In this document: positions 34,791-59,582 of the stretch, one piece after another
How positions within the stretch are numbered: position 1 is the first letter of the stretch
Layout: every line of letters starts with the position of its first letter
Source of the DNA: Pseudanabaena sp. Chao 1811
Lineage (GTDB): Bacteria; Cyanobacteriota; Cyanobacteriia; Pseudanabaenales; Pseudanabaenaceae
Assembly (NCBI RefSeq): GCF_027942295.1
Contig: NZ_CP101416.1
Coordinates: forward strand, 1,759,501 to 1,823,500
Length of the DNA: 64,000 nt
Direction: 5' to 3'
Made by a program: the position numbers and the translations under genes
Notes under the pieces: model-generated
The model's database searches: none
The model's input: only the letters and a program-made list of their open reading frames with translations
Told to the model about the DNA's origin: nothing

Positions 34791-37700
34791 ATGAATGATC
34801 GCACCGATATAATTGCCGATAATAATCGCGATGCTTTACGTCGATTGACGAGAATTGTGACGCGATCGCAAGGTTTTTCATTGTCGATCGCCTTATCTAA
34901 CTATCACGTATTACAAAAGCGCGTACTACAAGACTTGCGATCGCAACTTACTGAGAATGGCTTACCTGAAACTGCGATCGCGACACTTGAACTCAAACCT
35001 GATGCGAAGACTTTGCTAGCACCGATTCAGGAATTGATGGGGGAGGTACATCAATTGCCAAGTGAGCAGAAGCCCAAGGTGTTAATGGTTTTGGGATTGG
35101 ATGCGGTTACGGAAATCGAAGCGGTTTTGAAGTCGGCAAATCGGGTAAGAGAAGAATTTGCCAATTGTTTAGAGTTTCCGATGGTATTGTGGCTAAACGA
35201 TCGCACTCAGGATATTTTGACCCGTGAGGCGAGTGATCTAGCGAACTGGACTACGGCAGGGGCGATCGAGTTTCAGCTTGAGACGGAGGAACTAAAGAAT
35301 TTAGTCCAAGCATCGACGGAGGCAATGTTCGATCGCTTTCTTGAGATTGACAAGCAAGAAACTTCTCTTCACGCTGAAATCTCCCCTAGTGCACAGCATT
35401 TTGAACTGATGTCCGCGATCGCCGAATTAGAGGAGCAACAAATTGCGATCGCGCCAGAATTAAGAGCTAATCTAGATTTTGCCTTTGGGTGTATTGCCTT
35501 TACAGACAAGGAGATTACACAGGCGCAAGAATTTTTTCAAAAAAGCTTAGCAACTTTTGCAGAATGCGATCGCCTCAAACAGGCGATTTGTTTGCTGCAA
35601 TTGGGAATGTGCGAGTTCAATCGCGCCTTTGGCGATCGCTATCACAAGCTACCTTTTTACGAAGCTTCTCAAAAATATTTTGCTGAAAGTATCAATCTTT
35701 TCCGTGAATTGGAACGTTGGGATTTGGTGGCAGCATATATTAACTTTTTGACTGCGACAACAGAGGAGTTATTGAGTCGGGAAGCCCTCACCCCCAACCC
35801 CTCTCCCAGAGGGAGAGGGGAGCAAGAAGTAGATCTAACTCCCCCTCTCCTGCGGGAGAGGGGGCTGGGGGGTGAGGGCTTAGAAGCTCTCGCCCATGAA
35901 GCCTTATCCCTACATCAAACCTATCCCAATCAATTGCGAGAGGCGCACGATCGCGCCATCATTGCGTCGGTCAAACTTAGAGAAAAGGACTATCAATCGG
36001 CGAAAGAGTTTGCAGAATTGGCTTTGGCTCTCTATCACGAAGGAGAAGAACTGAAACTATCGAATTTAAGTTTTTCCAAGCGTTATGGCTATGGGAAGTA
36101 TGAGATTTGGTTAGCGAGGGCTTTGGAGGGATTGGGCGATCGCCAAGGTGCGATTAGGCGGCTCGAAAATGTCAAGGCTAGCTGGAATCATCAATACGAT
36201 GCTCAGATTTATGTGGCAGTTTTGGAGGAGTTGCGATCACTCTATACCGCCGCAGGTTTATATCTAGAAGCCTTTGAAACTAAGCAACATCAGCGATCGG
36301 TGGAGCAGCAGTATGGCTTACGCGCTTTTATTGGGGCGGGTACGCTCAATCCGAAACGAGAAGGCAATAATCCTGATCCCTATACGAATGTTGCGCCGCC
36401 GCCCGATGAAATTGCTCAAGAGATTGCGGCTTCAGGAAGAATGCAAGATGTGCTGAACTTGGTCGATCGCATTGGTCAGGCAAGATTTCCGTTAACGGTG
36501 GTGCATGGTGATTCGGGGGCAGGGAAAAGTTCGATTTTGAGTGGTGGGGTGATTCCTGCGTTACGGCTCAGAGAGAGCTTTGATGGGCGTAGGGTTTTAG
36601 TTTTGGCGGTGAAAACCTATAAAGATTGGAGTGGCGAAATTCGGCGGCAGTTACAGAATTATTTCCCCAATCGCTCTCCCGATCTCGATCCGATCCATCA
36701 TTTCAAACGGAATATTGAAGAGAATTATTTGACGGTATTAATATTCGATCAGTTTGAGGATTTCTTTTTTAAGAAGGAAGATTTTCGCGATCGCCTACCG
36801 TTTTATAAGTTCCTGAAGGCTTGTTTGCATACAGATTTTGTGCGGGTAGTGTTGTCATTGCGGGAGGACTATTTGCATTATTTGTTGGAATGCGATCGCG
36901 CTGTGGATTTGGAAAAGGTGGAGAATGATATTCTCGGTAAGCAGGTGCGCTACTATTTGGGGGATTTTACGCAGGAGCAGGCGCGGCAGGTAATCGAGGC
37001 GTTGACTAGGCGATCGCAGTTACGTTTAGAGCCTGAGTTGATCGAGCGTCTCGTGACGGATTTGAGTGGTGAGCAGTTGCGGATTTTGCCGATTGAGTTG
37101 CAGGTGGTGGGGGCGCAGTTGGAGTCGGAGGTTCCACCAATCTCGAATCTGCGTGAGTATCTTGCATTGACAGGGGATACGCAGCGTAAGTCGAGTGAGG
37201 TATTGGTGGAGCGGTGGTTGGAGAATGTGGTGAGGGATTGTGGGGTGGGGAATAAGGAGTTGGCGGAGAGGGTGTTGTATGCGTTGACGGGGAATGAGGA
37301 GAAGCGTCCGCAAAAGACGCAAGCGGAGCTTGCGGCGGAGTTGTTGCCATCTTCAGCCCCCCTAGCCCCCCAATTCTGGGGGGGACAAGAAAATGACCGT
37401 GTTTCAAAGTCCCCCAGTATTGGGGGATTTAGGGGGCTAGATAACATTGCATCGGAGAAGGGAGGAGCAGAAAATCTCTCGCTAGTGCTAGCGGTTCTAG
37501 TTGGCTCTGGGCTTGCTTTTCGGGTGAGTAGTGCGCCTGATGATCGTTTTCAGTTGATTCATGATTATTTGGTTAGCTTTATTCGCAAGAAGTATGTCTT
37601 CGGTATGGCGGAAGAGTTGCGGATGACTAAAGAACAATTGCGATCGGCGCTAGAGGCAAAAGATTTAGCTCTAGCAGAGAAAGAAAAAGAACTCCAACGC

Positions 37701-39746
37701 GCTGAAATTGCTGAGATCGAAGCGGTGAGTATCACCTGTGAGGCTTATTGGCTAGCGCATAAGGAGTTAGATGCGATGGTGGCAGGATTAAGAGCCGCAA
37801 GGCGCATCTTCGATCCTGATATCCGCAAGATTGTTCCTAACTATACCGAGGGTAGAACCTTTGGGCGACTGTGGGAAGTTATCCATAACATTCACGAAGC
37901 CAATCGCCTTGAAGGACATCGCAGTGGGGTTAGGAGCGTTGCCTTTTCTCCCGATGGCAAAACCATCGCCTCTGGCAGTTATGACAAATCCATCAAATTA
38001 TGGAACCTCGAAGGAAAAGAACTGAGTACCCTCACGGGGCATAGCAATTGGGTTAGGAGCGTCGCCTTTTCTCCCGATGGCAAAACCATCGCCTCTGGTA
38101 GTTATGACAAATCCATCAAATTATGGAATCTGGAAGGAAAAGAACTGCGTACCCTCATGGGGCATAGCAATGGGGTTTTGAGCGTCGCCTTTTCTCCCGA
38201 TGGCAAAACCATCGTCTCTGGCAGTTCTGACAACTCCATCAAATTATGGAATCTGGAAGGAAAAGAACTGCGTACCCTCACGGGGCATAGCAATGTGGTT
38301 AGGAGCGTCGCCTTTTCTCCCGATGGCAAAACCATCGCCTCTGGCAGTTATGACAAATCCATCAAATTATGGAATCTGGAAGGAAAAGAACTGCGTACCC
38401 TCACGGGGCATAGCAATGTGATTAGGAGCGTCGCCTTTTCTCCCGATGGCAAAACCATCGCCTCTGGCAGTTCTGACAACTCCATCAAATTATGGAATCT
38501 GGAAGGAAAAGAACTGCGTACCCTCACGGGGCATAGCAATGGGGTTTTGAGCGTCGCCTTTTCTCCCGATGGCAAAACCATCGCCTCTGGCAGTTCTGAC
38601 AACTCCATCAAATTATGGAATCTGGAAGGAAAAGAACTGCGTACCTTCATGGGGCATAGCAATGGGGTTTGGAGCATTGCCTTTTCTCCCGATGGCAAAA
38701 CCATCGTCTCTGGCAGTTCTGACAAATCCATCAAATTATGGAATCTGGAAGGAAAAGAACTGCGTACCCTCATGGGGCATAGCAATGTGGTTAGGAGCAT
38801 CGCCTTTTCTCCCGTTCGCGCAGCGTTTCCGCAGGAAATTGGCAAAACCATCGTCTCTGGCAGTTCTGACAAATCCATCAAATTATGGAACCTCGAAGGA
38901 AAAGAACTGCGTACCCTCATGGGGCATAGCAATGGGGTTTTGAGCGTCGCCTTTTCTCCCGATGGCAAAACTATCGCCTCTGGCAGTTCTGACAAATCCA
39001 TCAAATTATGGAATCTGGAAGGAAAAGAACTGCGTACCCTCATGGGGCATAACAATGGGATTTGGAGCATCGCCTTTTCTCCCGATGGCAAAACCATCGC
39101 CTCTGGCAGTTCTGACAACTCCATCAAATTATGGAATCTGGAAGGAAAAGAACTGCGTACCCTCACGGGGCATAGCAATGGGGTTTTGAGCGTCGCCTTT
39201 TCTCCCGATGGCAAAACCATCGCCTCTGGCAGTTCTGACAACTCCATCAAATTATGGAATCTGGAAGGAAAAGAACTGCGTACCCTCACGGGGCATAGCA
39301 ATGTAGTTTGGAGCATCGCCTTTTCTCCCGATGGCAAAACCATCGTCTCTGGCAGTTCTGACAACTCCATCAAATTATGGAATCTCAAAGGAAAAGAACT
39401 GCGTACCCTCATGGGGCATAGCAATGAGGTTTGGAGCGTCGCCTTTTCTCCCGATGGCAAAACCATCGCCTCTGGCAGTTCTGACAACTCCATCAAATTA
39501 TGGAATCTGGAAGGAAAAGAACTGCGTACCCTCACGGGGCATAGCAATGGGGTTTTGAGCGTCGCCTTTTCTCCCGATGGCAAAACCATCGCCTCTGGCA
39601 GTTATGACAAATCCGTCAAATTATGGGATATCGACTATGATCGCGCAATTTCTGAAGCCTGCGATTGGCTACGCCCTTACCTCACCAATAACTCCAATGT
39701 TTCTGAAAGCAACAGACAACTTTTGACAAGTCCTGTAGAGGCGTAG
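34791..39746 (+). CDS. STAND-like ATPase with 14 WD40 blades
   Basis: A 1651-residue protein. Residues 1-190 form an ATPase-like domain without an obvious Walker A; 200-550 are helical, TPR-like; then a P-loop GDSGAGKS (573-580) with VLIFDQFEDFFF (about 650) as Walker B, typical of STAND/NACHT-like NTPases; a helical arm; a coiled coil (about 950-990); and from 1042 fourteen WD40 repeats of 41 residues, i.e. two seven-bladed propellers. The tail DYDRAISEACDWLRPYL is common in cyanobacterial WD40 proteins. Such proteins assemble on ligand binding; the trigger is unknown. Two palindromic elements are read in frame (residues about 331-364 and 855-883), and one blade has an 8-residue insertion. 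Confidence 0.85.
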   Translation: MNDRTDIIADNNRDALRRLTRIVTRSQGFSLSIALSNYHVLQKRVLQDLRSQLTENGLPETAIATLELKPDAKTLLAPIQELMGEVHQLPSEQKPKVLMVLGLDAVTEIEAVLKSANRVREEFANCLEFPMVLWLNDRTQDILTREASDLANWTTAGAIEFQLETEELKNLVQASTEAMFDRFLEIDKQETSLHAEISPSAQHFELMSAIAELEEQQIAIAPELRANLDFAFGCIAFTDKEITQAQEFFQKSLATFAECDRLKQAICLLQLGMCEFNRAFGDRYHKLPFYEASQKYFAESINLFRELERWDLVAAYINFLTATTEELLSREALTPNPSPRGRGEQEVDLTPPLLRERGLGGEGLEALAHEALSLHQTYPNQLREAHDRAIIASVKLREKDYQSAKEFAELALALYHEGEELKLSNLSFSKRYGYGKYEIWLARALEGLGDRQGAIRRLENVKASWNHQYDAQIYVAVLEELRSLYTAAGLYLEAFETKQHQRSVEQQYGLRAFIGAGTLNPKREGNNPDPYTNVAPPPDEIAQEIAASGRMQDVLNLVDRIGQARFPLTVVHGDSGAGKSSILSGGVIPALRLRESFDGRRVLVLAVKTYKDWSGEIRRQLQNYFPNRSPDLDPIHHFKRNIEENYLTVLIFDQFEDFFFKKEDFRDRLPFYKFLKACLHTDFVRVVLSLREDYLHYLLECDRAVDLEKVENDILGKQVRYYLGDFTQEQARQVIEALTRRSQLRLEPELIERLVTDLSGEQLRILPIELQVVGAQLESEVPPISNLREYLALTGDTQRKSSEVLVERWLENVVRDCGVGNKELAERVLYALTGNEEKRPQKTQAELAAELLPSSAPLAPQFWGGQENDRVSKSPSIGGFRGLDNIASEKGGAENLSLVLAVLVGSGLAFRVSSAPDDRFQLIHDYLVSFIRKKYVFGMAEELRMTKEQLRSALEAKDLALAEKEKELQRAEIAEIEAVSITCEAYWLAHKELDAMVAGLRAARRIFDPDIRKIVPNYTEGRTFGRLWEVIHNIHEANRLEGHRSGVRSVAFSPDGKTIASGSYDKSIKLWNLEGKELSTLTGHSNWVRSVAFSPDGKTIASGSYDKSIKLWNLEGKELRTLMGHSNGVLSVAFSPDGKTIVSGSSDNSIKLWNLEGKELRTLTGHSNVVRSVAFSPDGKTIASGSYDKSIKLWNLEGKELRTLTGHSNVIRSVAFSPDGKTIASGSSDNSIKLWNLEGKELRTLTGHSNGVLSVAFSPDGKTIASGSSDNSIKLWNLEGKELRTFMGHSNGVWSIAFSPDGKTIVSGSSDKSIKLWNLEGKELRTLMGHSNVVRSIAFSPVRAAFPQEIGKTIVSGSSDKSIKLWNLEGKELRTLMGHSNGVLSVAFSPDGKTIASGSSDKSIKLWNLEGKELRTLMGHNNGIWSIAFSPDGKTIASGSSDNSIKLWNLEGKELRTLTGHSNGVLSVAFSPDGKTIASGSSDNSIKLWNLEGKELRTLTGHSNVVWSIAFSPDGKTIVSGSSDNSIKLWNLKGKELRTLMGHSNEVWSVAFSPDGKTIASGSSDNSIKLWNLEGKELRTLTGHSNGVLSVAFSPDGKTIASGSYDKSVKLWDIDYDRAISEACDWLRPYLTNNSNVSESNRQLLTSPVEA
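35782..35881. mobile_element. In-frame palindromic element inside the STAND gene (1)
   Basis: The ends AAGCCCTCACCCCCAACCCC and GGGGCTGGGGGGTGAGGGCTT are inverted. Two inner hairpins of CTCTCCC/GGGAGAG are separated by AGCAAGAAGTAGATCTAA. It is translated as LTPNPSPRGRGE ... LLRERGLGGEGL without a stop, in the helical region. The palindromic nature suggests insertion into the gene. Confidence 0.75.
37355..37439. mobile_element. In-frame palindromic element inside the STAND gene (2)
   Basis: Left AGCCCCCCTAGCCCCCCAAT and right ATTGGGGGATTTAGGGGGCT are inverted, flanking GACAAGAAAATGACCGTG. It is read through as SAPLAPQFWGGQ ... SPSIGGFRGL. Together with 35782, 34594 and 43501 it belongs to the CCCC-rich palindromic group. 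Confidence 0.7.
37914..39636 (+). repeat. Fourteen 123-bp WD40-encoding tandem repeats
   Basis: Each 123-bp unit encodes GHSN-x-V-x-S-V-AFSPDGKTI-x-SGS-x-D-x-SIKLWNLEGKELRTL. The units are nearly identical at the DNA level, including silent positions, which points to recent expansion or gene conversion. Confidence 0.95.
38815..38838. mobile_element. 24-bp insertion (short dispersed repeat-like) in WD40 blade 8
   Basis: In blade 8 the sequence TCTCCCG is followed by a 24-base insert (38815-38838, beginning TTCGCGCAGCGTTTCC) before TGGCAAAACC, whereas all other blades continue directly as ATGGCAAAACC. Length is a net gain of 24 bases, frame kept, giving VRAAFPQEI in place of D. Size and GCGCAGCG-type sequence resemble the very small mobile repeats (SDR) of cyanobacteria. 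Confidence 0.8.
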
Positions 39747-58194: not shown

Positions 58195-58271
58195 AAGTAG
58201 CTTGACATAATTAAAACCCAAAAGCCCAAAACTGTAGCGCACGCGCAGCGTGCGCTACAGTTTTGGGCTTT
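58195..58271. repeat. Half AAGTAGC element with hairpin 24+3+24 (copy E)
   Basis: The left end AAGTAGCTTGACATAATTAA matches the right end of copy C. It runs into a perfect hairpin (58221-58271; loop GCA). The other terminal repeat is missing. It lies between convergent genes, so it can serve as a terminator. Confidence 0.6.
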
Positions 58272-59430: not shown

Positions 59431-59582
59431 TAAGTAGCTAGGTATAAATGAATAAGCCCGCCGCAGAGCGGCGGAGAATTTACCCTTTAGCTAGATTAAA
59501 AAAATAGAACTAAAAGCTGTGGCGCACGCTGCGCGTGCGCCACAGCATTTGGGGTTTATATTTAATTGCGCCTAGCTACTTA
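59431..59582. mobile_element. AAGTAGC MITE-like element (copy B)
   Basis: TAAGTAGCTAGGTATAAAT at the left and TTTAATTGCGCCTAGCTACT at the right. It contains a 14+3+14 hairpin (59516-59546, TGC loop) and CCGCCGCAGAGCGGCGG. 152 bp, in the divergent gap 59346-59681. Confidence 0.75.

Follow-up and report, generated by a model that had tools for sequence, protein, structure and literature searches.

A probable small dispersed repeat inserted at a HIP1-like site in one WD40 unit of Pseudanabaena sp. Chao 1811

Introduction

Small repeats that lie in frame within protein genes and are tolerated there are known from the Rickettsia palindromic elements (RPEs), which measure roughly 100–150 bp. Here, we describe an element of 25 nucleotides (nt) that interrupts one of 14 near-identical WD40 units in a 64,000-nt stretch of the Pseudanabaena sp. 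Chao 1811 genome (NZ_CP101416.1, positions 1,759,501 to 1,823,500 of the forward strand; the whole of this stretch is hereafter the window, and coordinates are counted from its first letter). It resembles the RPEs in being in frame and apparently tolerated in protein genes, and differs from them in its length and in its unrelated sequence.

Cyanobacterial small dispersed repeats (SDRs), notably SDR5, are likewise 20-odd nt long and dispersed and form hairpins with compensatory changes (PMC4390886, PMC2884548); SDR5 is reported to sit between bases 3 and 4 of HIP1 (PMC4390886). Compared with SDR5, the element described here has a target that matches HIP1 at six of eight bases, brings its own T to replace one base, lies in a coding gene and occurs in a copy-poor genus. 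REPs and REPINs with GTAG or CGTC tags (PMC3733652, PMC3116915) are also short, non-autonomous hairpin repeats, possibly moved as single-stranded DNA; the present element differs in having no GTAG tag or CCA tail, in its two very short adjacent hairpins, in its precise CG^A target and in the absence of a linked REP-associated tyrosine transposase (RAYT). Its first hairpin, CGC-GNA-GCG, has the same structure as the d(GCGNAGC) DNA mini-hairpins, GNNA variant included (PMC4686876), but those are synthetic oligonucleotides, whereas the present case is a dispersed repeat in a genome that follows the same rule.

How repeats of ~25 nt move is unsettled. In three unrelated settings (the WD40 unit, a Uma2-family gene of the same genome and tandem heptamers in other cyanobacteria), the states before and after insertion can be read to the base, and they have a rule in common: a cut after CG, one base lost and 25 nt ending in T gained. 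This rule is experimentally testable and constrains any mechanism.

The insertion in WD40 unit 8

The host gene (34791..39746, + strand) encodes a 1651-aa protein with an nSTAND1 NTPase domain (PF20703, E=3.6e-27) and an array of 14 WD40 units (37914..39659, + strand; PF00400 in 14 stretches). The units start at 37914, 38037, 38160, 38283, 38406, 38529, 38652, 38775, 38922, 39045, 39168, 39291, 39414 and 39537, giving a 123-bp period in every unit but unit 8 (38775-38921), which has 147 bp. Alignment of the units places the difference in a 24-base insert, TTCGCGCAGCGTTTCCGCAGGAAA, at 38815..38838 (+ strand): unit 8 reads CCCG-TTCGCGCAGCGTTTCCGCAGGAAA-TTGGC, while its 13 sisters read CCCG-ATGGC (CCCGATGGC). 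By chance alone, the window would be expected to hold 0.00 matches to this 24-mer at ≤3 mismatches. An earlier note on this DNA had reported the insert and stated that its boundaries can be read from the empty sister units, and the alignment bears out both points, all 13 sisters being uninterrupted. The sister-unit text that it gave, TCTCCCGATGGCAAAACC, is matched to the letter by 12 of them; unit 9 departs from it with AAAACT.

Position 38839 (+ strand) holds a T in place of the sisters' A. The earlier note had treated this as an adjoining A-to-T change; the change is present, and comparison with the sister units, the heptamer junctions and the Uma2 site refines it to a part of the element, its 25th base. 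On this sequence reading, the event is best viewed as an exchange of 1 nt for 25 nt, a net gain of 24 bp (8 codons) with the frame kept.

Masking the insert leaves unit 8 with 5-9 differences from units 2-13, which differ among themselves at a mean of 6.0 bases (range 1-11). Unit 8 minus its insert is thus an ordinary array member, no more divergent than any of its sisters. The insertion therefore struck an array that had been homogenised beforehand, and the array did not spread the insert.

Junctions and target site

Some copies of the element in other cyanobacteria interrupt tandem heptamers, for example (AATTACG)n, where the repeat itself predicts the base that should follow. At these junctions, A was predicted after the element in 21/21 cases and T was found in 21/21. 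The second setting is another family copy in the same genome, TTCGCATAGCGTCTCCGAAGGAGA (G000:C1:3131916-3131939; L217:1417-1440), which lies in frame within a Uma2-family gene (PF05685). Where this gene has 25 nt, all 21 alignable genus homologues, three of which have 89-95% protein identity, have exactly one base, which on the gene strand is T or C; the empty sites occur in orthologues and paralogues alike. As in the WD40 copy, the gene gains a net 24 nt with its frame kept, and the last base of the element is T. Across the 58 exact-core copies, G stands on the 5′ side in 54 and T on the 3′ side in 46. On the heptamer, Uma2 and neighbour-base data, the T is best counted within the element, as its 25th base, replacing one target base.

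The interrupted target, CCG^ATGGC with the A replaced, spans 38812..38843 (+ strand) and matches HIP1 (GCG^ATCGC) at 6/8 bases; in its empty form, CCGATGGC, it holds the sole CGAT in the unit examined. Perfect HIP1 halves (GCG and NTCGC) flank 13/106 copies, and likewise one copy in a member of the same genus (G008). Judged from sequence, the position of the element in a HIP1-like site agrees with that of SDR5, with the target degenerate. We conclude that the insertion is precise, replaces one base and prefers a CG^A site.

Two adjacent mini-hairpins

The 25-nt element has the form TTCGCGNAGCG-[TNNCC GNA GGNNA]-T, and folding yields two adjacent mini-hairpins, CGC-GNA-GCG and TNNCC-GNA-GGNNA. 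In the window copy, hairpin 1 (38817..38825, + strand) is CGC-GCA-GCG with a GNA triloop, and hairpin 2 (38826..38838, + strand) is TTTCC-GCA-GGAAA with a covarying stem. Covariation was assessed by a search that specified neither loop and left stem 2 free at its two inner pairs, and that listed 72 copies from 58 genomes. Both inner pairs of stem 2 are Watson–Crick in 57/72 of these, compared with a mean of 33 and a maximum of 42 after column shuffling; once identical copies are removed, the figure is 42/56 (shuffle maximum 32). The copies are mutually related, and these counts are to be taken as support and not as a probability. They indicate that the paired structure is under constraint.

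Loop 1 is GNA in 62/72 copies even though it was open in the search, and all four middle bases occur. Its 4-nt variants are GNNA in 22/25, with GNYA in 20 of those 22 and GNRA in only two, a sample that comes from few genomes and in which the first G was fixed by the search. DNA mini-hairpins of extraordinary stability follow a published rule, GNA or GNNA loops closed by G–C pairs (PMC4686876), and the adherence of loop 1 to this rule favours a DNA structure. The two-hairpin fold was the DNA minimum for 4/4 sequences tried; it was the RNA minimum for 3/4, where it was less dominant.

Hairpins with such loops also occur elsewhere in the window. Among the perfect hairpins with a 3-base loop and a stem of at least 6, 14/32 have GNA (or TNC) loops, compared with 2.3 expected under a first-order Markov model. 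A resident dispersed long palindrome, ATAAAACCCCAAAAGCTGTGGCGCACGC-GCA-GCGTGCGCCACAGC..., is found at 58239-58253 (+) and 59524-59538 (-); it has 12 copies in 464 kb of the genome, with a GNA loop and stem changes that preserve pairing.

Distribution of the element

The 24-mer itself has one copy in its own closed 4.73-Mb genome, even at ≤3 mismatches. Opening the loops and the inner stem in the search pattern recovered the second member, and the family copies in this genome are two only, at 1798315 (the window copy) and 3131916 (the Uma2 copy). Own-genome matches with two mismatches (L022 and L023) were rejected as chance, the controls being about equally frequent and L023 aligning with a coding sequence of a relative (L010). 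Genus-wide, matches with one mismatch were no commoner than those to the reversed control, and the element is nearly absent from the genus Pseudanabaena; it has nonetheless reached this genus. One copy in the same genus (G008, L259:504) splits a perfect HIP1 site, and the A is kept.

A search of 57 other cyanobacterial genomes at ≤3 mismatches returned 17 matches in nine genomes, whereas the reversed pattern matched nowhere, and a scan for TTCGCGNAGCGTTTCCGNAGGAAA over one genome for each of ~85,000 prokaryote species returned 54 stretches, all from records titled as cyanobacteria. Among these stretches are exact copies of the 24-mer from Nodularia, Cyanosarcina and Dolichospermum (L072, L077, L079, L098, L093), and the open-loop pattern gave 19 copies in one genome (G039). 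A search for the 24-mer in its own genome and in relatives had been set beforehand as the test of whether the insert was a unique local event, and its recurrence in other cyanobacteria answers that it was not. The 2.9 million viral contigs contained one match, which suggests no phage vehicle. Of the 54 copies in other genomes, 18 lie inside long open frames, compared with 74% of random positions; with copies elsewhere mostly outside such frames, the two in-gene copies here are atypical, and they probably survived with the help of a net size that is a multiple of three.

The earlier note had placed the insert in the SDR class on account of its small size (21-27 bases), in-frame length and sequence type, and this assignment holds: the length is 24 nt net or 25 nt with the replaced base, copies are dispersed in its own genome (two) and among other cyanobacteria, the structure covaries, and filled and empty sites can be compared at the WD40, Uma2 and heptamer loci. 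That the insert in unit 8 is one copy of an SDR found widely among cyanobacteria, inserted with the junction described above, is in our view highly probable. Within the cyanobacterial SDR class we regard the element as a new member, which may belong to a family that has already been named, and for which the empty-site evidence is unusually good; no full description turned up in the literature searched on SDRs and heptamers. Separately, tens of near-identical copies of related elements occur in two genomes (G157 and G140) within larger repeated contexts (CCCCCCTCGCGCAGCGTGCCC... and GGGTGTTCGCGAAGCGTCGCC...).

Effect on the protein

The insertion changes SP-D-GKT to SP-VRAAFPQEI-GKT, adding a net eight residues and removing the Asp of the SPDG turn. 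In an AlphaFold2 model run on the single sequence (best mean pLDDT 87.6), the strands of all units are retained, and the insert forms a low-confidence loop (~299-311) between strands 293-298 and 312-317. On this model, the WD40 fold would remain intact, the insert doing no more than lengthen a surface loop that links strand A to strand B. The extension is likely to be tolerated; we claim no new function for it. Repeats of this kind can thus add 8-codon peptides without breaking a gene.

Mechanism and alternative explanations

The best overall explanation, to which we give a probability of roughly 0.77, is that an SDR copy occupies a HIP1-like site with one base replaced, having been mobilised in trans as single-stranded DNA. 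The two adjacent mini-hairpins would be the recognised structure and CG^A(T) the target. The element entered the HIP1-like site between CG and AT and replaced the single A, adding a net 24 bp; insertion would cost one target base and bring no target duplication, and an enzyme acting on single-stranded DNA would mobilise the element in trans. The single-stranded DNA step, taken by itself, is tentative, at somewhat less than even odds. More doubtful is the full proposition that a 25-nt two-hairpin element moves as single-stranded DNA and takes the place of exactly one target base at CG^A, leaving the target unduplicated; if true, the element would be among the smallest mobile elements, with an insertion chemistry not described for the IS200/IS605, REP or retroelement systems.

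Several observations weigh against this explanation. In a second class of junctions (e.g. in G039 and G008), perfect HIP1 sites are split and their A is retained behind the element, so one base is not replaced in every case. Only about half of the copies have GNA as loop 2, and the window copy does not stand out from shuffled sequences in its DNA folding energy (z -0.78). Two copies in a 4.73-Mb genome show no burst of mobility, and no mobilising enzyme could be linked to them, none of the three Y1 transposase genes (4615458, 359280 and 3483423) being near an element copy. On the protein side, the five AlphaFold2 models differed widely (mean pLDDT 41-88).

The same element might instead have moved via an RNA copy that was reverse transcribed into the target, a route that Elhai et al. 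reportedly suggested in 2008 for some SDR families. Compensatory stem changes suit any single-strand intermediate, RNA included, and hairpin 2 also folds as RNA. However, hairpin 1 is marginal as RNA, being lost in one of four sequences, and its loops obey the DNA rule GNA/GNNA (PMC4686876), its tetraloops being GNYA in 20/22 and not the GNRA of RNA; we consider an RNA route unlikely. A REP-type repeat moved by a RAYT would accord with a hairpin element in a genome that holds three Y1 transposase genes, and GTAG REPs have been reported in cyanobacteria (PMC3733652). Yet neither copy lies near those genes, and the window copy, which has GCGTTTCC, shows GTAG at neither end, has CGTT and not CGTC before the stem and lacks a CCA tail, leaving this origin improbable.

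It is also conceivable that the insertion arose outside this lineage, and that gene conversion or horizontal transfer imported a blade already carrying the element from a different cyanobacterium. The near absence of the element from the genus and the exact 24-mers in Nodularia, Cyanosarcina and Dolichospermum speak for such an import. Unit 8 minus its insert is, however, no further from its sisters than they are from one another, and the Uma2 copy shows the same junction in an independent context of the same genome. WD40-gene orthologues were fetched from 14 congeners, and the 24-mer was found in this gene in none of the genus members examined, two of the orthologue arrays being interrupted by contig ends or gaps. 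We give an imported blade little credence. Finally, slippage, templated repair or a sequencing error might have produced 24 arbitrary bases in a local accident, as the 24-mer is unique in this genome and such arrays often rearrange. The array offers no source for the bases, however, the family was confined to cyanobacteria in the genome scan, and the junction base of the family is present. The scan of ~85,000 genomes, the exact copies elsewhere, the heptamer T rule and the empty Uma2 sites together rule this origin out for practical purposes.

Other repeats in the host gene

Two further segments of the host gene drew attention. A second dispersed repeat at 35781-35860 encodes LTPNPSPRGRGE; similar DNA is found at several other sites in the sampled stretches of the genome, and the repeat is missing from several orthologues. 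A third, insertion-like segment at 37353-37440 is in frame and contains an inverted repeat, AGCCCCCC...GGGGGGCT. It has weak protein matches in relatives' frames with stops, and the orthologues are highly variable at that place.
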